Below are positions 39,143 through 52,509 of a stretch of DNA of 64,000 nt, piece after piece. Origin of the DNA: an uncultured Pelagibacteraceae bacterium. GTDB taxonomy: Bacteria; Pseudomonadota; Alphaproteobacteria; Pelagibacterales; Pelagibacteraceae. Both the position numbers and the translations under genes were made by a program. Under the pieces are notes generated by a model. That model worked only from the letters and a program-made list of their open reading frames with translations, did no database searches and was not told where the DNA came from. The stretch covers positions 1 through 64,000 of the forward strand of contig CACHIV010000004.1 of NCBI GenBank assembly GCA_902579985.1, in the 5' to 3' direction. Positions within the stretch are counted from its first letter, which is position 1; each line of letters opens with the position of its first letter.

Positions 39143-39171
39143 CTGGTCCATGATTCGATATCATGGGCCAG
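39143..39171. terminator. Intercistronic hairpin after aldehyde dehydrogenase
   Basis: An inverted repeat with a 12 bp stem (39143-39154 pairing with 39160-39171, one G-T pair) and a 5-base loop TCGAT. It lies between the aldehyde dehydrogenase stop and the DUF779 start. No T-run follows, so it may be an mRNA-stabilising or processing structure rather than a strict terminator. It contains the ATG at 39163, which argues against that codon as the DUF779 start. Confidence 0.7.
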
Positions 39172-39180
39172 AGAAAACAA

Positions 39181-39534
39181 ATGAAAGTATCAGCAACACA
39201 TTCAGCTTTAAATTTACTATCTGAGTTAAAAGAAAGATATGGTGAGAAATTAATGTTTCATCAATCAGGGGGATGTTGTGATGGAAGTGCTCCAATGTGT
39301 TTTCAAGAAGGTGAATTTCCTTTAGGAGATAATGATATAAAATTAGGAGAAATTGGAGGAGTTCCTTTTTACATGAATGGCGACCAATATGAAAAGTGGA
39401 AACATACTGATCTTACAATTGATGCTGTAAAAGGTATCGGTGGCATGTTTTCTTTGGATAACGGTACGGGGAGAAGATTTTTAACTAAATCTGAGATATG
39501 TCTAATAGTAGATAATGATAATCCAAATCATTAA
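39181..39534 (+). CDS. DUF779 family protein, aldehyde dehydrogenase partner
   Basis: A 117-residue protein starting 'MKVSATHSALNLLSELKERYG', with the family's 'MFHQSGGCCDGSAPMCF' cysteine cluster and 'EIGGVPFYMNGDQYEKW'. DUF779 genes usually accompany AcoD/ExaC-type aldehyde dehydrogenases, as here. The clustered Cys residues suggest metal or redox chemistry, but the role is not established. I use the ATG at 39181; the one at 39163 is buried in a hairpin. Confidence 0.88.
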   Translation: MKVSATHSALNLLSELKERYGEKLMFHQSGGCCDGSAPMCFQEGEFPLGDNDIKLGEIGGVPFYMNGDQYEKWKHTDLTIDAVKGIGGMFSLDNGTGRRFLTKSEICLIVDNDNPNH

Positions 39535-40484: not shown

Positions 40485-41927
40485 ATGTACGAAAGATATG
40501 GACAATTTATAGATGGAAAGTGGCAAGCGTCTTCAAATAAAGAAACATATGAAGTAATAAATCCTGCAACTGAAGAAGTTATAGGTCATGCTTCTAAGGC
40601 AACTTCTGGTGATGTTGAAAGGGCATTAAAGTCTGCAGAAAAAGGATTGCAAATTTGGAAGAAAACTCCTCCTTGGCAGAGATCTTACGTCTTAAGAAAA
40701 ATAGCTGACAAGATGAGAGAAAAGAAAGATGTACTTGCTAAGTGGATGACTTTAGAAAATGGAAAACCTTTAGTTGAAGGTATTGCTGAAATAAATGGAG
40801 CAGCTGATATTTTTGAATGGAATGCTGAAGAAACAAAAAGAATTTATGGACAAACTATTGAAAGTAGATTTAAAGATACCAGAGTGCATGTTTATTATCA
40901 ACCCGTAGGTGTTGTTGCTGCATTATCTCCTTGGAACTTTCCACTTGTTTTAGCCGCAAGAAAAATTGCAACTGCATTAGGAGCAGGATGTTCAGTAATT
41001 ATTAAACCTGATGTAATTACTCCCGGAGTAGTAATGGAGTTAGTTGATATTTGTAGAGAAAGTGGTATTCCTTCCGGAGTAGTAAATCTTTTATCTGGTG
41101 ATCCTCCAACTATAGCATCTCAATTAATTCAATCTGATATAATTAAAAAAATTTCTATTACTGGATCAGTAAGAGTAGGAAAGTTAATTTTAAAACAGGC
41201 TGCGGATAAAGTTCAAAGAGTAACTATGGAGTTAAGTGGACATTCCCCATTTATAGTTTTTGATGATGCCGATATTAAAAAAGCAGCTGATATGGCAATT
41301 GCAGCAAAATTTAGAAATAATGGACAAGTATGTATTTCACCTAATAGATTTTATATTCAAGAATCTAAAAAAGAAGAGTTTATAAAATTATTTATCGAAA
41401 AAACTAAAAAATTGAAAATTGGTAATGGAATGGACCCAGAAACTCAATTAGGTCCATTAACAACTCTAAAAAGATTAAATGAAGTAGAAGAATTAGTTGA
41501 AAAAACCAAAAAAGAAGGTGCAAAAGTTTTATTAGGCGGTAAAAGACCTGCTGGTTTTAACAAGGGTTTTTTTTACGAACCAACAATTTTTGATAATGTA
41601 AAAGATGATTTTACTATTATGAAACAAGAACCATTTGGCCCTTTAGTACCAATGTTGTCATTTAAATCTTTTGATGAAGTTATAGAAAGAGCCAATAATC
41701 ATGAATTAGGTCTTTGTAGTTATGTTTGTACTAATTCTATGGAAACTGCTCATTTAGCATCTGAACAATTAGAAACAGGTTCAGTAGCAGTAAATACAGG
41801 ATTTGTAGCAATTGCTGAAGCTCCATTTGGTGGAATTAAACAAAGTGGATATGGCAGAGAAGGTGGGTCAATGGCAATTAAAGACTATCTTAACATTAAA
41901 TATACCCATATGGGTATTAAAGGTTAA
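40485..41927 (+). CDS. NAD(P)-dependent aldehyde dehydrogenase (SSADH-like)
   Basis: A 480-residue aldehyde dehydrogenase. 'VVAALSPWNFPLVLAARKIATAL' (family core, in part), Glu in 'VTMELSGHSPFIVFDDADI', and Cys in 'FRNNGQVCISPNRFYIQ' are the catalytic landmarks. The overall look is of succinate-semialdehyde/glutarate-semialdehyde dehydrogenases. It is followed after 4 bp by an FAH-family hydrolase, so the two probably act in one catabolic route, for example of hydroxylated acids or aromatic ring-cleavage products. The substrate is not predictable. Confidence 0.92.
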   Translation: MYERYGQFIDGKWQASSNKETYEVINPATEEVIGHASKATSGDVERALKSAEKGLQIWKKTPPWQRSYVLRKIADKMREKKDVLAKWMTLENGKPLVEGIAEINGAADIFEWNAEETKRIYGQTIESRFKDTRVHVYYQPVGVVAALSPWNFPLVLAARKIATALGAGCSVIIKPDVITPGVVMELVDICRESGIPSGVVNLLSGDPPTIASQLIQSDIIKKISITGSVRVGKLILKQAADKVQRVTMELSGHSPFIVFDDADIKKAADMAIAAKFRNNGQVCISPNRFYIQESKKEEFIKLFIEKTKKLKIGNGMDPETQLGPLTTLKRLNEVEELVEKTKKEGAKVLLGGKRPAGFNKGFFYEPTIFDNVKDDFTIMKQEPFGPLVPMLSFKSFDEVIERANNHELGLCSYVCTNSMETAHLASEQLETGSVAVNTGFVAIAEAPFGGIKQSGYGREGGSMAIKDYLNIKYTHMGIKG

Positions 41928-41931
41928 TTAA

Positions 41932-42774
41932 GTGAAATTATTAAGGTTGGGAGTTGCTGGTAAAGAAATTCCAGCAGTAATTGATAATAAAGGAAAGTAT
42001 AGAGATCTTTCTTTTCATCTAAATGATTTAAATCCAGATACAATTAATTTTAAAACTCTTAATGAATTAGGAAAAATTAATTTAGAAGATTTAAAAGAAA
42101 TAGATAAAAATGTTAGAATCGGACCTTGTATAAATAAACCAGGAAATTTTTTTGCAATAGGATTAAATTATACTAAACATGCTAAAGAGACTGGTGCAGA
42201 ACCGCCAGATAATCCAGTGCTTTTCAATAAATCTGTTCACTCAATAATTGGACCTAATGACAATGTTATAATTCCCAAAGGTTCAGAGAAACTTGATCAT
42301 GAAATAGAAATTGCAATTATAATTGGGAAAAAAGCAAAAAGAGTTAAAGAAGAAGAAGGTCAAGATTATATTTTTGGGTATTGTATTTGCAATGATGTTA
42401 GTGAACGTGACTGGCAAAAAAATAAAGGTGGACAGTGGGTAAAAGGTAAATCAGGTGATACCTTTGCGCCTTTAGGCCCTTATTTAGTTACTGGAGATGA
42501 AATTAAAAATTTAAAAAATATTAATTTATCTTTAGATGTAAATGGAGAAAGACATCAAACAGGAAATACAAATCAAATGATTTTTGATTTTAATTTTTTA
42601 GTTTCTCATATCAGTAGTTTTATTACTTTGATGCCTGGTGATATTATAACAACAGGTACACCTCCAGGTGTAGGACTTGGGATGGATCCTCCTCAATTTT
42701 TAAAGCATGGTGACAAAATGGAATTATCAGTAGATAATCTTGGAACTCAAACAATAAAAGTGATAGCTGAATAA
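41932..42774 (+). CDS. Fumarylacetoacetate hydrolase family protein
   Basis: A 280-residue FAH-family enzyme with a GTG start. The catalytic core has 'FAIGLNYTKHAKETGAEPP', 'PVLFNKS', metal ligands Glu-x-Glu in 'LDHEIEIAIIIGKKAK', 'YIFGYCICNDVSERDWQ' with the metal-binding Asp, 'KSGDTFAPLGPYLVT' and 'GDIITTGTPPGVG'. Members hydrolyse or tautomerise 2-keto acids and acylpyruvates. Coupling with the upstream aldehyde dehydrogenase suggests one pathway. Confidence 0.92.
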   Translation: MKLLRLGVAGKEIPAVIDNKGKYRDLSFHLNDLNPDTINFKTLNELGKINLEDLKEIDKNVRIGPCINKPGNFFAIGLNYTKHAKETGAEPPDNPVLFNKSVHSIIGPNDNVIIPKGSEKLDHEIEIAIIIGKKAKRVKEEEGQDYIFGYCICNDVSERDWQKNKGGQWVKGKSGDTFAPLGPYLVTGDEIKNLKNINLSLDVNGERHQTGNTNQMIFDFNFLVSHISSFITLMPGDIITTGTPPGVGLGMDPPQFLKHGDKMELSVDNLGTQTIKVIAE

Positions 42775-43497: not shown

Positions 43498-44079
43498 ATG
43501 AAAATTTATCAAATTGACTCTAGTGCAAGAAAAAAAGGTTCAACCTCGAGAGCTTTAGCAAAAAAATTAATAGAAAAAATTAAAAAACCTGGTGATGAAG
43601 TTGTTTATAGAGATCTAGATGACGAAATGCTTTTTGTCTCAGGCTTAACAGAGTCTGGAATGAAAATTCCAGAAAATGAGAGAACAGAACAACATAAAAA
43701 GATGTTTGAGCTATCTGATAAACTTGTATTAGAACTTAAAGAAAGTGATGTTATAATAATTTCAGCTCCAATTTATAATTTTGGACCGCCTGCAACATTA
43801 AAAGCTTGGTCAGATTTAGCTGCGCGAGTTAAAGAAACATTTAGATATAATGAAGATGGAAGTAGAGTTGGATTATTACAAGATAAACAAGTTTATTTAG
43901 TTATTACTTCAGGAGGAACAAAAATAAATAGTAAAGAAGATTTTTTAACACCATGGTTAATTCATGTTTTAAATTTCTTTGGAATTAAAAAAATTAAGAT
44001 AATTGCAGCAGATCAAATGGCTATAGATTATGATAAATCAGTTAAGGCAGCTGAAGATCAAATTAATAAAATATCTTAA
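43498..44079 (+). CDS. FMN-dependent NADH-quinone/azo reductase
   Basis: A 193-residue flavodoxin-like protein of the AcpD/AzoR family. It starts 'KIYQIDSSARKKGSTSRALAKK', the FMN phosphate loop. 'DVIIISAPIYNFGPPATLKAW' is the conserved second FMN-binding segment (in part), and 'VYLVITSGG' follows. Members reduce quinones, probably for detoxification. Its last 4 bases overlap the end of the convergent dioxygenase gene. Confidence 0.9.
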   Translation: MKIYQIDSSARKKGSTSRALAKKLIEKIKKPGDEVVYRDLDDEMLFVSGLTESGMKIPENERTEQHKKMFELSDKLVLELKESDVIIISAPIYNFGPPATLKAWSDLAARVKETFRYNEDGSRVGLLQDKQVYLVITSGGTKINSKEDFLTPWLIHVLNFFGIKKIKIIAADQMAIDYDKSVKAAEDQINKIS

Positions 44080-45176
44080 TTGTCAAAATTTCTTTTTAAA
44101 TGTCTCAATTTTCCTTCGCTACTGTCATAATCAATATAACAACCCTGTAAATATCTTTTTCCCTCATTAGGATTATATGCGGTTCTACCGTGTAACAATC
44201 GATAGTTGTCCATCATCAGAAGATCACCTGGTATTAATTTAAATTCAATTTTAAATTTGTCTGAATTATAAAGATCAGAAATTTTTTTCCTTGCTTTATA
44301 GTATAAGTCTAATTCATTTTTTTTTAAAATAGGAACAAAATCTAATCTAGTACTAAATCTAACTTGTTTAAGATTTTTATTCTCATCTAATTCAATTAAT
44401 TGACCATTATTTTCTAAAACAACATTTTTATCAGTAAATTTAAATTTAACTTTAATTTTTGTTAAGATTCTAAAAAAACTAGGATTAATTTTTTTGAGGT
44501 AATTAGCGACTTTAAATCCATCAACTAAAGTCGAACGACCACCACTTACTTCATTTTCTATACAATGTAGTAATTGAATACATGGAATAGGTTTACGATA
44601 TGGATTATCTGTATGTGGAGAGAGAGGAAGAGAAGTATAAGCTAAATCGTTTGGACGATATATAGATTTTACATTGAAGAATTCTCCAAAGTTAGTTGGT
44701 CTTACATTTCCTATAGAATTTGCAAAATTAATTATAAAATTATTTTTAGTCGGAAGATTTTTTATTATTACAAAACCATATTTATAAAAAGATTTTAGTA
44801 AATTATACATTTCTTTACTTTTAAAAAAGTTTTTTTTATAGAAATATTTTGGATATCTTTTTAATGAAGAGTCCCATAAATTTACTTTTACTGTGTTAAA
44901 TAGATTATTTGTGTCAAGAAATTCAGATGTAAGTTCATTTATTCGAAATTTAGAATGAACTCCATCATTAAAAGTTAATTCCAGGATATTTCCTTTAATT
45001 ATTGCATCTTTAATTTTAATATTTTCAAGAAAAGATGGGTCAAAAAGTCTTTGAGCAGTATTTTGGTCTAAATATTCCTTACTATTGACTCTTTCACGAA
45101 GCCACATAGGATGAATTTCAGTTTTTTTTTTTTTATTATTAAAAACGACAGTATTATTATTTACTTCAATTTTCAT
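44076..45176 (-). CDS. Gamma-butyrobetaine-hydroxylase-like Fe(II)/2-OG dioxygenase
   Basis: A 366-residue TauD/TfdA-fold oxygenase of the BBOX type. The N-terminal small domain has 'IHPMWLRERV' and 'QNTAQRLFDPSFL'. The iron triad is His188-x-Asp190 in 'SPHTDNPYRKP' and His329 in 'RLLHGRTAYNP', with the 2-oxoglutarate Arg near 341 ('GKRYLQGCYIDY'). 'NPYRKPIPCIQLLHC' is typical of gamma-butyrobetaine and trimethyl-ammonium substrates. Candidates are gamma-butyrobetaine hydroxylase, trimethyllysine hydroxylase, or TmpA acting on trimethylaminoethylphosphonate. The N-domain lacks the Zn cysteines of the mitochondrial enzyme. It is monocistronic. Confidence 0.88.
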   Translation of the reverse strand: MKIEVNNNTVVFNNKKKKTEIHPMWLRERVNSKEYLDQNTAQRLFDPSFLENIKIKDAIIKGNILELTFNDGVHSKFRINELTSEFLDTNNLFNTVKVNLWDSSLKRYPKYFYKKNFFKSKEMYNLLKSFYKYGFVIIKNLPTKNNFIINFANSIGNVRPTNFGEFFNVKSIYRPNDLAYTSLPLSPHTDNPYRKPIPCIQLLHCIENEVSGGRSTLVDGFKVANYLKKINPSFFRILTKIKVKFKFTDKNVVLENNGQLIELDENKNLKQVRFSTRLDFVPILKKNELDLYYKARKKISDLYNSDKFKIEFKLIPGDLLMMDNYRLLHGRTAYNPNEGKRYLQGCYIDYDSSEGKLRHLKRNFDN

Positions 45177-46480: not shown

Positions 46481-46921
46481 TTATTTTTCCATTTTCAAAA
46501 GTTTATTTTTTAATTTTCTGGGTAAATTGTTAAACCATTTTTTTTCTTTACCAGACTCTGGCAATACAGTCCCATATTCAATCATTTGAGATGGAGGCAA
46601 ATCAACTATGTAAACCCACACTTGAGTTACATCTAACTTGGAATTTTTAACCAAAATATTCTTTAAATCTAAAATTAATTTGTCTTTTATTTTCTTTGGC
46701 CTTCCAGCTCTTATTTGGCCAAGTAAAAATAACGATGGTTCTTTAACTTTTTTTCCTCCCATAAAATGATTATTTTTTTTTGTTTTATTAAAAATAACTT
46801 GTGCAAAATAGGTGTTTGCACCTGTCACAATATTGTGAACTTTGGTTATACCCTGAGCTAAATTTTTTTGCTGTTTTGTGGTTAGATTAAAATTTGAATT
46901 AGTTACTGTATAAGTTGGCAT
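46481..46921 (-). CDS. Tautomerase, cis-3-chloroacrylate dehalogenase-like
   Basis: A 146-residue protein of the tautomerase superfamily, a fused-dimer beta-alpha-beta fold with catalytic Pro1 after Met removal ('MPTYTV'). Numbering from Pro1, all six catalytic residues of cis-CaaD are kept: Pro1, His28, Arg70, Arg73, Tyr103 and Glu114, in contexts 'KVHNIV', 'GQIRAGRPKK', 'QVWVYIVDLPPSQMIEYG'. The C-terminus 'KKWFNNLP' also matches 'GEWFDNL'. The related Cg10062 shares these residues yet prefers propiolate and similar substrates, so the real substrate here is open. It belongs to the small-gene operon. Confidence 0.85.
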   Translation of the reverse strand: MPTYTVTNSNFNLTTKQQKNLAQGITKVHNIVTGANTYFAQVIFNKTKKNNHFMGGKKVKEPSLFLLGQIRAGRPKKIKDKLILDLKNILVKNSKLDVTQVWVYIVDLPPSQMIEYGTVLPESGKEKKWFNNLPRKLKNKLLKMEK

Positions 46922-46941
46922 ATAATGAAAAAAGGATAATC

Positions 46942-47163
46942 TTATTTAGTAATTTTATCTACTAATTTTTTTATAGGAGGGCCAACTAAAAGAGCAGCAA
47001 ATATAGCAATAGGCAAGCTTACAGACCAAGCTCTTAAGAATCTTTTATAATATTCATTGTCCATACCTGTATTAATGAAGGTTATTATTAACGTCATTAA
47101 TAAACTCATACCAAAACCCATAATCAATATGAATAACAAATTGGAATATTTTTTTGAAAACAC
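46942..47163 (-). CDS. DUF2798 family membrane protein
   Basis: A 73-residue protein with two membrane helices, at about residues 8-30 and 45-62. 'GMSLLMTLIITFINTG' and 'RAWSVSLPIAIFAALLVGPPIKKLV' (in part) match the DUF2798 pattern. Its role is unknown. It is in the small-gene operon, 20 bp upstream of the tautomerase gene. Confidence 0.75.
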   Translation of the reverse strand: MFSKKYSNLLFILIMGFGMSLLMTLIITFINTGMDNEYYKRFLRAWSVSLPIAIFAALLVGPPIKKLVDKITK

Positions 47164-47179
47164 TTATTTTAATTAGAAA

Positions 47180-47500
47180 CTATTTTGGCATTTTAGTTGC
47201 ACCTGTTTCTTGGTATACAACTTTACCATCTTTAAATTTATAATAAGTCATTACAGCTTCTTTATTACCATCATTAAAGTCAACCATTGCATGTTCAAAG
47301 CCAACCTCATCATTTTCAAAAAGTACTCTTACATTACTTTTTTTAACATCTTTCATACCTACCCAGCCAACTACATCTTTTTTAGATAGGCTTTTTCCAG
47401 ATGAATGCATTAAAAATTGATAATCATCATGTATTAGTTGTTCAGCACCCGCTGTGTCGCCATCATTTATTATTTTTGACATTTTTTCTATAATTGACAT
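47180..47500 (-). CDS. SnoaL/NTF2-like small protein
   Basis: A 106-residue protein with an NTF2-like outline: a short N-terminal helix ('KMSKIINDGDTAGAEQLIHDDYQFLMH'-type start, here residues 6-30), then 'SKKDVVGWV' and beta strands 'NVRVLFENDEVGFEHAMVDF', 'EAVMTYYKFKDGKVVYQE'. Such folds serve as small enzymes or ligand-binding subunits. No catalytic residues can be assigned. It is 16 bp upstream of the DUF2798 gene. Confidence 0.7.
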   Translation of the reverse strand: MSIIEKMSKIINDGDTAGAEQLIHDDYQFLMHSSGKSLSKKDVVGWVGMKDVKKSNVRVLFENDEVGFEHAMVDFNDGNKEAVMTYYKFKDGKVVYQETGATKMPK

Positions 47501-47516
47501 TGTTTTTCTATCTTAT

Positions 47517-47933
47517 TTAAACGTAAATTTTATCTGCAAGACCATAGCAAAGCACTGCACTTAAAACAGTTAGAACTAATGGGGCATATATCGCTTCGTC
47601 CGAGGTTTTATCTGTATGTCCAAGTTTATTTATTTTTGTACTATAAAAACCAACAATAAAAGCTGATAAGTTTTGCAAAAATATTAGATTAAAGAATGCC
47701 CAAGTTGCTTCCAAACCATTAGGCCTAATAAATCCTACATAAATAGCCATCACTGTAGATCCAATAAATATTGATCCAAAAAATCTAACTATCCCGGCTC
47801 CTGTATCATGCATTCCATATTGATTTAAAAAAGATTGTGTTTGAAAAACACATCTAAATCCATAGTAAGCAAATCCTATAAAATGAATTAAAAATACTGC
47901 TAAGTAAATAATCCCGTTAAATTTATCAATCAT
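47517..47933 (-). CDS. Four-helix membrane protein, unknown
   Basis: A 138-residue membrane protein with four hydrophobic segments near residues 7-27, 50-68, 76-96 and 115-133. A conserved-looking 'GYGMHDTGAGIVRFFGSIFIG'-type loop (here 'QYGMHDTGAGIVRFFGS') follows the first helix. I do not recognise the family. GGAG stands 5 bp before the ATG. It is part of the small-gene operon. Confidence 0.7.
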   Translation of the reverse strand: MIDKFNGIIYLAVFLIHFIGFAYYGFRCVFQTQSFLNQYGMHDTGAGIVRFFGSIFIGSTVMAIYVGFIRPNGLEATWAFFNLIFLQNLSAFIVGFYSTKINKLGHTDKTSDEAIYAPLVLTVLSAVLCYGLADKIYV

Positions 47934-47953
47934 TTAAACTCCTTTAAAATATT

Positions 47954-48262
47954 TTAACTAAAAATTGGTCTTATCTCATCTTCGATTGTACCTTCTATCG
48001 CAACTTCTTTCAATTGCTCTAAAAGCTTTATAAATTCAGGGTCTGCAGACATATTCGCATCAGCTTCATTATCACCTTCAAACATAGGTCCAATTACAGT
48101 TTCCCTTATTGTTCTTGGATCTCCACCCATTTGAAAAGAAAAATAAACATCATGATTAGGATAATGTTTTTTTCTAACTGTCGCTAAACCTTTTCCAATT
48201 TCCATTGCTTTTCCTAAGCCGTCGTCTTTTACTCTCATTGTTCTTGTGTAAATTACTTTCAT
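47954..48262 (-). CDS. Small soluble protein, unknown
   Basis: A 102-residue protein starting 'MKVIYTRTMRVKDDGLGKAM', with 'HYPNHDVYFSFQMGGDPRTIRE' (in part) and an acidic C-terminal half. The pattern of an N-terminal strand, a helix ('GKAMEIGKGLATVRKK') and a strand ('VYFSFQMGG') suggests a ferredoxin-like dimeric alpha/beta barrel such as NIPSNAP or ABM proteins. This is inferred from the pattern only. It follows the next upstream gene by 7 bp. Confidence 0.65.
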   Translation of the reverse strand: MKVIYTRTMRVKDDGLGKAMEIGKGLATVRKKHYPNHDVYFSFQMGGDPRTIRETVIGPMFEGDNEADANMSADPEFIKLLEQLKEVAIEGTIEDEIRPIFS

Positions 48263-48269
48263 TTTTTTC

Positions 48270-48554
48270 CTATTTTACTTTTGTTAAATCATATATTGAA
48301 TAGCTATCTAAAACAGCATCCATGATAGGTTTTGATACTTCAGTTCCTTCAATGAACTTGTGTAATGCGGGTTCATCAGTACAAAATATCTTAAACATTA
48401 CAGTACTTTTATCTGGTGTTACCGTTCCAATAGTTTTTTCTACTACTGCAACTTTAGCTCTTTCTGCTAAACCCTCAGGTGATTGCATAAAGCTCATAAA
48501 CTTTTCGAAAGTACCTTCTTTTAATTTAGCTACTACTAACATCTCTTTTTCCAT
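48270..48554 (-). CDS. Small ferredoxin-like-fold protein, unknown
   Basis: A 94-residue protein: 'MLVVAKLKEGTFEKFMSFMQS' (strand-helix), 'KAVVEKTIGTVTPDKSTVMFKIF' (two strands, in part), 'EPALHKFIEGTEVSKPIMDAVLDSY' (helix) and 'YDLTKVK'. The layout fits a beta-alpha-beta-beta-alpha-beta ferredoxin-like fold, as in the neighbouring GYD protein. I do not recognise the family with confidence. AAAGGAG precedes the ATG at ideal spacing, which suggests strong translation. Confidence 0.7.
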   Translation of the reverse strand: MEKEMLVVAKLKEGTFEKFMSFMQSPEGLAERAKVAVVEKTIGTVTPDKSTVMFKIFCTDEPALHKFIEGTEVSKPIMDAVLDSYSIYDLTKVK

Positions 48555-48571
48555 TTTTTTCTCCTTTATTT

Positions 48572-48895
48572 TTATTTTCCTGGTTTAATAACACTGTTAG
48601 CTGCGTTAGCAGCGTTAGTAAATGCTTTATTGTAGTTAATTACTTCATGAATCATTAAATCATCCATTAGACCAGAATTTTTAAAAGCTATTTTTAAAGC
48701 AACAGCCTGTTCGTACTCACCCTCAACACACGAAATTACATCAAATCTTCCTCTTACCCAATCATAACTGATTAATTTTAATCCTGCTGCCTCAGTGACT
48801 TTTTTAGTTGAAGCGTATCTATCAGCAGACGGATCATTTTGCATACGTTGCATTAAATCCTGACTAATCTTTCCAATCAAATAAAATTTTGACAT
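48572..48895 (-). CDS. GYD-domain protein
   Basis: A 107-residue GYD protein. 'DPSADRYASTKKVTEAAGLKL' (in part), 'YDWVRGRFDVISCVEG' and 'AVALKIAFKNSGLMDDL' align with the GYD protein at 40067-40384, so these are paralogues about 8 kb apart. AAAGGAG lies at ideal spacing before the ATG. It sits in the small-gene operon between an NTF2-like gene and a ferredoxin-like-fold gene. Confidence 0.8.
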   Translation of the reverse strand: MSKFYLIGKISQDLMQRMQNDPSADRYASTKKVTEAAGLKLISYDWVRGRFDVISCVEGEYEQAVALKIAFKNSGLMDDLMIHEVINYNKAFTNAANAANSVIKPGK

Positions 48896-48919
48896 TATTT
48901 TTCTCCTTTATTATCAATT

Positions 48920-49303
48920 CTATTTTTTCATTGCATTATACATTGAAAGTGTATCGTCAAAGGTCATCATAACTTTAGTTTTTCCTTCATCGCTTACCTC
49001 AAAATAGTGACCAAACATGGTATCCAAGTTATCTGCAGTTGCATGAACTCTTGCAAAAACTTTATTTCCCTCACTTATCATATCTAAAACTTTTAAATGA
49101 AAATTCGGCCATGTAGCTGGGATTTTAGACATTGCGGTCATCATAGCTTGTTTTCCTTTATGTACTCCAGAAAGTGGATGAACACCTTCTTTACCTGGAA
49201 ATGTCCAAACAATATTATCATCGATCATATCTTTGAAAAATGTTTCCATATCGCCAGAACCAAATAGTTCATATGCTTTCTTTGTTTGCTCTTTTACATC
49301 CAT
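48920..49303 (-). CDS. SnoaL/NTF2-like protein
   Basis: A 127-residue NTF2-fold protein: 'KKAYELFGSGDMETFFKDMIDDNIVWTFPG' (in part; helix then strand) is the typical SnoaL opening. It is followed by 'GVHKGKQAMMTAM', 'VLDMISEGNKVFARVHATAD' and 'KVMMTFDDTLSMYNAM'. SnoaL-like proteins include cyclases, hydrolases, isomerases and non-enzymatic binders. A strong GGAAGG lies before the ATG. It is the second gene of the small-gene operon. Confidence 0.8.
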   Translation of the reverse strand: MDVKEQTKKAYELFGSGDMETFFKDMIDDNIVWTFPGKEGVHPLSGVHKGKQAMMTAMSKIPATWPNFHLKVLDMISEGNKVFARVHATADNLDTMFGHYFEVSDEGKTKVMMTFDDTLSMYNAMKK

Positions 49304-49328
49304 TTTGTTTTCCTTCCTCTTTTTTATT

Positions 49329-49703
49329 TTAATATAAAGTTTGGACTACTTTTTTTACTCTTTCAGCTCCATTTGGAACCAAAGCCTCAACAAATGTATG
49401 ACATTTTTCAGTTTTAGCTTCATCATATTTTGAACCGTAATATTTATCTACTGCTTTATTCACTCCATCATCCCAGTCTTTTTCAGGAATACCTATTTCA
49501 AGGGCATATTCTTTAAGAACCTTTGCAGTTGAAATAGATTTTTCTTTCATACCATATTCAAATTCTTCACCAGGCGGAAGAAAGTAGTTAGCCATGTAAA
49601 TACCTACACAGTCCCAAGCTTTTGATTTATCGCTTTTACTCATATCCGCGTGAGCAGATGTAAAAATAAAAAAAGTTAAAAGTAATATTAAATATTTTTT
49701 CAT
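49329..49703 (-). CDS. Exported protein with two cysteines, unknown
   Basis: A 124-residue protein with a clean signal peptide ('MKKYLILLLTFFIFTSAHA', cleavage after residue 19). The mature part is mostly helical, with two Cys residues ('AWDCVGIYMANYF' and 'TEKCHTFVEAL') that could form a disulfide. I do not recognise the family. As the first gene of the small-gene operon it suggests that at least part of the system acts in the periplasm. The 86 bp upstream, to the cysK end, holds its probable promoter. Confidence 0.75.
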   Translation of the reverse strand: MKKYLILLLTFFIFTSAHADMSKSDKSKAWDCVGIYMANYFLPPGEEFEYGMKEKSISTAKVLKEYALEIGIPEKDWDDGVNKAVDKYYGSKYDEAKTEKCHTFVEALVPNGAERVKKVVQTLY

Positions 49704-49789
49704 AAACCTCCAAAGTTTGTAGATATTGTAAAGTTAGCTAATATTATTCTAAAAATGTAAATGTTTTATTACATGGCTGGTATGCGTTA

Positions 49790-51546: not shown

Positions 51547-52509
51547 ATGAGAATAATAAAAACTACGCTTGTAGCTGGATTGATTTCTTTATTAGCAACT
51601 TTTTCAACATATGCAGAAAAAGTTAAAATTGGAGATCCAGGCTGGACAGGTGCCACAGCTATAGCAAATTTATTAGCTGCAGTTGTCACAGATAAAATGG
51701 GTGGAGAAGCAGAACTTGTTCCAGGAAACAACACTGCAATCTATGGAGCAATTGATAGAAGCAAAGGTGAAATAGAAGTTCATCCAGATATTTGGTTACC
51801 TAATCAAGAAGCTTATACTAATGATTTAGTTCCAAAAGGAACTCTTAGATTAAGTAATAATTCTTATGAGGGAAACCAAGGCTATTGTGTTTCACAAAAA
51901 TTTGCAAAAAAAATGAATATTACTGCAATCGAAGATTTAGGAAGACCTGAAGTTGTTAAAGCTATGGATAGTGACGGCAATGGTAAAGGGGAATTTTGGA
52001 TTGGTGCAGATGGTTGGGCTTCAGCAAATGTTAATGAAGTAAAAGTAAGAGATTACAAATTACTTGATGCAGGGATTGAACCAATTAGAGCCGCAGAGGC
52101 AGTTAAAAATGCTAGAGTTTTAGACTCTATTAAAAAAGATGAAGGTTATGCATTCTACTGTTATAAACCTCACGCTATTTGGGGTATGGCAGATGTAGTA
52201 ATGTTAGAAGAGCCTAAACATGATCCAGCTAAATATAAAATGATACAGCCTAAAGCTGATCCTGATTGGTATAAAAAATCTTATGTTGCATCTAAAGATG
52301 CTCTTAAGAAAATCCAAATTGGTTGGGGAACTTCTTTAGAAAAAAAATCACCTGCTATAGTTGAATTTTTCAAAAAATTTCAAATAACTGCAGATGATGT
52401 ATCTACTATGGCTTATCAAATTTCAGTTGAAAAGAAACAACCAGCTGATGTTGCAAGAGCTTGGATGAAAGCTAATAAATCAACAGTTGACGGTTGGTTA
52501 GGACTATAA
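51547..52509 (+). CDS. proX: Glycine betaine-type ABC transporter binding protein
   Basis: A 320-residue periplasmic OpuAC/ProX-family binding protein with a signal peptide of about 22 residues ('LLATFSTYA'). The mature start 'EKVKIGDPGWTGATAIANLL' has the Trp that helps form the cage for quaternary ammonium groups. 'VHPDIWLPNQEAY', 'WIGADGWASANV' and 'YKPHAIWGMADVVML' add further aromatic residues. The likely ligands are glycine betaine, proline betaine or choline-like osmolytes. It is the first gene of proX-proV-proW; a hairpin follows it. Confidence 0.92.
   Translation: MRIIKTTLVAGLISLLATFSTYAEKVKIGDPGWTGATAIANLLAAVVTDKMGGEAELVPGNNTAIYGAIDRSKGEIEVHPDIWLPNQEAYTNDLVPKGTLRLSNNSYEGNQGYCVSQKFAKKMNITAIEDLGRPEVVKAMDSDGNGKGEFWIGADGWASANVNEVKVRDYKLLDAGIEPIRAAEAVKNARVLDSIKKDEGYAFYCYKPHAIWGMADVVMLEEPKHDPAKYKMIQPKADPDWYKKSYVASKDALKKIQIGWGTSLEKKSPAIVEFFKKFQITADDVSTMAYQISVEKKQPADVARAWMKANKSTVDGWLGL

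Follow-up and report, generated by a model that had tools for sequence, protein, structure and literature searches.

What does an enzyme with the active site of cis-3-chloroacrylate dehalogenase (cis-CaaD) do in an ocean bacterium? The best-known members of the cis-CaaD subgroup of tautomerases come from soil bacteria. A preliminary description of a 64,000-nt stretch of DNA from an uncultured member of the Pelagibacteraceae (the window, hereafter) had claimed a tautomerase with all six catalytic residues of cis-CaaD at the exact positions, and proposed it as a hydratase or dehalogenase for a haloacrylate or acetylenic acid. The gene belongs to SAR11, which makes up the majority of ocean bacteria according to the available text of PMC8437039. 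Our best reading is that the enzyme is predicted to hydrate a small monocarboxylate, either alpha,beta-unsaturated or acetylenic, with a probability of about one in two. The observed basis of this reading consists of family membership, the monomer fold, the six residues, their conservation, and purifying selection.

Table 1. Tautomerase gene and neighbouring features of the window
Feature	Coordinates	Strand	Remarks
cis-CaaD-subgroup tautomerase	46481..46921	-	146 aa, ATG start; Pro1, His28, Arg70, Arg73, Tyr103, Glu114
ExaC-type acetaldehyde dehydrogenase, 551 aa	37473..39128	+	NF050026, 862.7 bits, just under the cut-off of 900
Small protein, DUF779-like	39163..39534	+	tblastn, 48% over 105 residues to an annotated Cupriavidus protein
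Eight small genes upstream of the tautomerase gene	46942..49703	-	SnoaL_2, GYD-like (below cut-off), the rest without a clear family

Family membership and active-site residues

Residues of the window tautomerase were numbered from Pro1, after removal of Met. In a Pfam scan, the protein scored 42.3 bits against Tautomerase_3 (PF14832; cut-off 25.7) and 24.6 bits against PF01361 (cut-off 22), and it combines the PF14832 score with the N-terminal Pro1 and the five further residues that mark the cis-CaaD subgroup. The best phmmer matches among PDB sequences were Cg10062 (98.4 bits), cis-CaaD (78), and N1 (75.8), which cover most or all of the protein; the T34A variant of cis-CaaD scored 78.8 bits. 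All of the top 23 PDB sequence matches were Cg10062, cis-CaaD, variants or a chimera of these, or N1, and the phmmer alignment to Cg10062 ran without gaps over residues 2-145. The cis-CaaD reference sequence was confirmed against PDB chain 9nff_B (150/150 residues), and all six catalytic residues of the window protein were found to share alignment columns with those of cis-CaaD. The residue numbers given in the preliminary description were correct, and the flanking motifs it had aligned, QVWVY and QMIEYG, are both present in the protein.

The six-residue match is not a chance result, given that PF14832 scores above its cut-off and that all 104 SAR11 homologs keep the six residues, reading PHRRYE at these positions. 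The 104 comprise 24 homologs from the search of the window's family (window and one fragment excluded) and 80 from a scan of species genomes. As a fused tautomerase, the window protein belongs to the cis-CaaD subgroup and has the full six-residue set. Because the set characterises SAR11 homologs in general, it does not single out the window copy. We also evaluated a hand-chosen alignment of 57 sequences (25 from SAR11), which left out L115, L117, and L119 as near relatives of aligned rows, the weak or partial L127-L129, and the interrupted L121. The full set was observed in 45 of the 57, and 17 of the 28 other proteobacterial relatives keep all six. Among the 12 without it, six are Linker-1-like and lack Tyr103, three have Tyr28, His103, and Ile114, and three have Ala for Pro1. 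Within this alignment, the six residues do discriminate within the wider tautomerase family.

Predicted fold and phylogeny

The window tautomerase was modelled with AlphaFold2 as a monomer only, from an alignment of 25 SAR11 sequences, giving a pLDDT of 90.3 and a pTM of 0.83. By fold comparison, this monomer model has the fold of two fused beta-alpha-beta units with a C-terminal extension. It matched PDB chains of Cg10062 (Z 19.6), N1 (19.1), and cis-CaaD (18.7) over 143-145 residues, the match to Cg10062 and cis-CaaD taking in the predicted C-terminal tail; full-length chains of this set had Z scores of 18.5-19.6. Fold scores were lower for Linker 1 (15.5), Linker 2 (15.3), fused 4-OT (at most 15.2), and MIF (at most 13.8). 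A better match to a non-hydratase tautomerase subgroup, which the preliminary description had asked about, was not found, as the cis-CaaD group comes first by both sequence and fold. A PDB sequence search up to E 10 (44 sequences) gave no chain named MSAD, nor did the 50 fold matches listed, which does not exclude MSAD.

In a tree of 54 rows, SAR11 fell within a branch (96/88) that also holds Burkholderiales sequences, some others, and cis-CaaD, and was set apart from the Cg10062/N1 branch (99/90). Within the larger branch, cis-CaaD joins the Burkholderiales sequences, not SAR11, on a long branch; Linker 1 is on a long branch too, and the tree should be read with this in mind. Constraining SAR11 with the Cg10062 branch gave a p-AU of 0.033 for a group that was named post hoc, after the tree had been seen, and constraining SAR11 with cis-CaaD alone, likewise named post hoc, gave 0.052. 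The placement of SAR11 outside the Cg10062/N1 branch and in the larger branch of cis-CaaD is a lean of the sequence data, not proof. Raw scores perhaps favour Cg10062 because cis-CaaD has diverged more.

At position 117, three residues after Glu114, cis-CaaD and Cg10062 have Arg and N1 has Lys. Arg was observed in none of the 104 SAR11 homologs, which have A (64), E (33), T (4), S (1), V (1), or K (1). This bears on a dedicated cis-3-haloacrylate dehalogenase acting on natural marine haloacrylates, which we consider very improbable. The six residues and the grouping with cis-CaaD and Burkholderiales, apart from Cg10062/N1, would agree with such an enzyme, and Asparagopsis taxiformis is a reported producer of haloacrylic acids in the available text of PMC10919026; yet cis-CaaD, on its long branch, joins Burkholderiales and not SAR11, the p-AU for SAR11 with cis-CaaD alone is 0.052, Arg117 is missing, and no haloacid-named family was found among the 19 neighbouring window proteins scanned, four of which had no Pfam match. 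Nothing but homology favours haloacrylates as the substrate. What stands of the proposed hydratase or dehalogenase is a cis-CaaD-subgroup protein with the full residue set in SAR11, while a specific substrate does not, given the absent Arg117 and the lack of a haloacid-family neighbour. The accompanying caution, that Cg10062 shows these six residues do not fix the substrate, applies here.

Distribution and conservation

Matches to the tautomerase were present in 26 of the 147 genomes of the window's family (16 of 54 high-quality genomes; 5 of 14 genera), one of the matches being a 46-residue fragment at a contig end. The species-genome scan returned 235 relatives in 290 pattern matches; the 80 kept were all titled Pelagibacteraceae or Pelagibacterales, and named SAR11 records matched the window at 79-90%, which is the basis for assigning the window to SAR11. 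At the level of the class, 7 of 289 genomes matched the SAR11 profile, of which five have Linker-1-like proteins without Tyr103, while the window genome and G160 have all six residues. Eight of 398 genomes of the phylum, the window's included, matched at E 1e-20: two have Ala1, and in one (G587:C1:1722526-1722954) the reading frame is interrupted by a TAG; the contig of this relative has a further, partial match ~25 kb from it. The family of G659 had 50 matches in 200 genomes at E 0.001, 15 of them strong (E < 1e-45), and of the 14 strong matches readable from the start, seven have the full set, and the remaining seven differ from it by Ala1 alone. Twelve plasmid records matched (Caballeronia 5, Paraburkholderia 4, Microvirga 1, Cupriavidus 1, Methylobacterium 1), and none of the 33 stretches of viral contigs that fit the pattern encodes a relative. 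The tautomerase has a scattered distribution in Pseudomonadota, with frequent occurrence in parts of SAR11.

Among SAR11 sequences, the median dN/dS was 0.060 and the maximum 0.156, as computed over the 137 of 253 pairs among 23 scan loci with a dS of 0.1-1, a range that excludes the window pairs (dS > 1). The SAR11 gene is under strong purifying selection as a protein.

Ala1 was found in all seven strong matches of the group f199 g328, seven genomes of ~2 Mb (L199, L202-L207) whose proteins keep the other five residues; L123, L124, and L235 denote three of these loci. The three Ala1 relatives included in the tree nest among SAR11 sequences within a starred branch, and this nesting suggests transfer between the f199 g328 group and SAR11, in either direction. 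By sequence, they would be natural Pro1-less members of the cis-CaaD subgroup.

Gene neighbourhood

In the window, the ExaC homolog is encoded ~7 kb from the tautomerase gene on the opposite strand, and the DUF779-like protein, encoded behind the ExaC homolog, had no NCBIfam match at E 1e-10. Other genomes of the genus have much of the eight-gene run together, but without a tautomerase gene at its end; in G730:C10, the four matches span 46928-48574 and 49314-49760 apart from small gaps, and the tautomerase gene lies outside all of them. The tie of the tautomerase to this run looks local. An FAA hydrolase and a second aldehyde dehydrogenase (40485-42774) were rejected as partners, both being below specific NCBIfam cut-offs, and neither ranked with the best matches in the DNA surrounding the 80 SAR11 loci from the scan. 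Separately, a TauD-family dioxygenase (44076-45176) scored 343 bits to the 2-trimethylaminoethylphosphonate dioxygenase TmpA (cut-off 400), and a gene for an OpuAC-type substrate-binding protein lies ~6 kb from it, at 51547.

Across these 80 SAR11 loci, the tautomerase gene was observed directly after a gamma-carbonic-anhydrase-like gene in 56 and directly after a fabI-like gene in 5. An ExaC-type aldehyde dehydrogenase gene directly follows it in 16, and in a 17th after one small ORF. Unscanned neighbours, such as the fabI-like, MFS, and PNPOx-like genes, were named by eye from sequence. The gamma-carbonic-anhydrase-like protein scored 187.7 bits against a specific NCBIfam model (cut-off 250). 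The pairing is common in the window's genus, but the window genome's copy is damaged and other lineages lack the pairing, so we rejected the gene as a partner and treat the association as one of position only. That copy (C1:40278-40739, L160) contains a TAG, matches only from residue 17 on, and lies away from the tautomerase gene.

A third context was found in the family search, where the tautomerase gene sits between mtnP (442 bits, cut-off 437) and mtnA (414.9 bits, cut-off 279; NCBIfam) in 13 of 24 loci, or 13 of all 104 SAR11 loci. In nine of these mtn loci (L161-L167, L172, L178; genus g4), the tautomerase gene starts 4-6 bp after mtnP and runs into the beginning of mtnA, with an overlap of 1-4 bp in eight loci and, by first-start calling, 64 bp in the remaining one. 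In all nine, mtnA is followed by a class II aldolase gene, with one extra ORF between in two, and this in turn by a fused speD-speE in eight, the ninth stopping at a contig end; the aldolase reached no specific NCBIfam cut-off. The g4 arrangement, mtnP-tautomerase-mtnA-class II aldolase-speD-speE, places production and salvage of methylthioadenosine in one operon.

This order, with its nearly touching or overlapping genes, could point to a step in 5'-methylthioadenosine (MTA) salvage, in which the enzyme would act on a methylthio intermediate near the reactions of MtnP, MtnA, and the class II aldolase. We regard such a role as improbable. All 13 loci belong to one clade (SH-aLRT 99), so the context represents one event, and L176, from the window's genus, has mtnP directly next to mtnA, with the tautomerase gene ~7.5 kb away. 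MtnA occurs in 108 of 147 family genomes versus 26 for the tautomerase, and four genomes with the tautomerase (G032, G048, G093, G143) have no MtnA match at E 1e-40, although the operon of G093 meets a contig end. The window genome has its MtnA at C1:50125, not beside the tautomerase gene. The DHAP shunt leads from MTA to 2-methylthioacetaldehyde (PMC10986504), and this aldolase product has no carboxylate for Arg70 and Arg73. A constant place in the mtnP-mtnA-aldolase operon (MTA salvage, DHAP shunt) was not found across the 104 SAR11 loci. DmdA was considered near the tautomerase gene in L171 and rejected, the GcvT-like protein there scoring 238.7 bits against a demethylase cut-off of 410.

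We recognise only four kinds of site: gamma-carbonic-anhydrase-like, mtn, fabI-like, and that of the window. Mapping gave 11 site changes, a number that overstates the moves because eight unplaced loci each formed their own class. The gene changes place among SAR11 genomes, and any one of its contexts, taken by itself, says little about function.

Outside SAR11, a Cupriavidus oxalaticus plasmid carries, in divergent orientation to the tautomerase gene, genes for a DUF779 protein and an aldehyde dehydrogenase, the dehydrogenase being 68% to the window ExaC homolog; MFS, PLP transferase, and GntG-type (threonine-aldolase-like) aldolase genes lie onward in this locus. A GntG-type aldolase gene is found just upstream of the tautomerase gene in Caballeronia zhejiangensis, and in G795 (L233) the ExaC-type dehydrogenase and DUF779 are ~4 kb from it. 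Among 22 non-SAR11 stretches (9-19 kb, E 1e-8; L182, a near-copy of L181, was left out), ExaC-type dehydrogenase/DUF779 was present in 2 and absent from 20.

The varying neighbourhoods and the patchy presence in family genomes would suit a general enol-keto tautomerase or broad-specificity detoxifying enzyme, whose hydratase residues are inherited and whose cellular job is not the hydration of a specific acid. Four annotated Burkholderiaceae plasmids, with mixed neighbours (MFS transporters, MarR regulators, dehydrogenases), point the same way. In the available text of PMC5818174, phenylenolpyruvate tautomerase activity is found in every enzyme of the linker series, but it drops stepwise towards cis-CaaD. 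The SAR11 six-residue set is, moreover, complete and invariant, with the Tyr103 that Linker 1 is without. We hold this possibility to be real but rather unlikely.

Proposed function and mechanism

We consider hydration likeliest because of the literature on the cis-CaaD subgroup (PMC5818174) and because of PDB titles, which name acetylenecarboxylic acid hydration by Cg10062 and cis-CaaD variants and decarboxylation by cis-CaaD variants. In PMC5818174, Pro1 is the general acid in the dehalogenases, and the linker-series enzymes with the complete set, cis-CaaD and Cg10062, have cis-CaaD activity, with a trace in Linker 2 and none in Linker 1, which lacks Tyr103; the function of Cg10062 is given there as unknown.

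The trimer, the roles of single residues, and hydration itself we infer by analogy with characterised relatives. The tautomerase would be a homotrimer and, as a member of the cis-CaaD subgroup, would work through Pro1: Arg70, Arg73, and His28 would hold the substrate carboxylate, Glu114 and Tyr103 (the latter from the adjacent subunit) would activate water, and Pro1 would deliver a proton to C2. The product would be a malonate-semialdehyde-type acid, and a possible further decarboxylation would give an aldehyde, which could be oxidised by an ExaC-type dehydrogenase. Cg10062 reportedly also decarboxylates. The ExaC-type neighbour would suit, if thinly, a tautomerase that also decarboxylates malonate semialdehyde to acetaldehyde; a joint role of the two enzymes is something we only infer. 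The GntG/threonine-aldolase-like gene of Cupriavidus is a possible alternative source of acetaldehyde. For hydration speak the ExaC-type gene, which in SAR11 lies behind the tautomerase gene at 17 of the 80 loci, and its divergent counterpart in Cupriavidus; against it stand the replacement of Arg117 in all SAR11 homologs, an identity of 31-35% to the characterised full-set enzymes, the lack of a constant partner gene, and the occurrence of ExaC with DUF779 in just 2 of 22 non-SAR11 loci.

A more specific form of the hydration reading seems improbable to us, namely that part of SAR11 hydrates natural 3-substituted acrylates and thereby frees the substituent. This would be halide in the case of algal haloacrylates and methanethiol in that of 3-methylthioacrylate. 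A 3-substituted acrylate would then pass to malonate semialdehyde and on to acetaldehyde. If true, such substituent release would give cis-CaaD chemistry a physiological role in a marine group of high abundance, and release of the methylthio substituent would add a new route to methanethiol. Most SAR11 bacteria are not known to have DmdD. The 3-methylthioacrylate idea would follow by chemical analogy from the hydration of methylthioacryloyl-CoA by DmdD (available text of PMC5395565).

Comparison with known enzymes

The open-licence literature on SAR11, cis-CaaD, Cg10062, and marine chloroacrylate dehalogenases, in the text available, gave no description of this SAR11 tautomerase. What is new is a SAR11 branch of an already known enzyme subgroup. 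This branch is large and strongly conserved, with a complete active site, a different residue 117, and an Ala1 side branch, and it may bear on the natural purpose of cis-CaaD chemistry and on SAR11 turnover of haloacrylates or organosulfur acids.

Four characterised or structurally known proteins stand nearest to the window protein. Cg10062 (CgX, Corynebacterium glutamicum, PDB 3n4g among others) shares the full-length fold, the six residues, and 35.2% identity, and has the highest PDB sequence score, but it differs in its tree branch (with N1 and Methylobacterium, 99/90), at residue 117, and in the loop of residues 32-38, which reads AHAPKYL in Cg10062, TGANTYF in the window protein, and TGTQHFL in cis-CaaD. 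With cis-CaaD, the window protein has in common the six residues, Thr32, Gly33, Gln111, Met112, and the larger branch, whereas identity is 31.5% and the window protein has Ala34 for Thr34 and Phe38 for Leu38, and is without Arg117. N1 (PDB 7m58, a cis-CaaD family member) has the same fold and six residues at 31.2% identity, yet belongs to the Cg10062 branch. Linker 1 (Ps01740, PDB 5uif) has Pro1, His28, both Arg residues, and Glu114 as in the window protein, but has Ala for Tyr103 and 28.8% identity over 125 columns.
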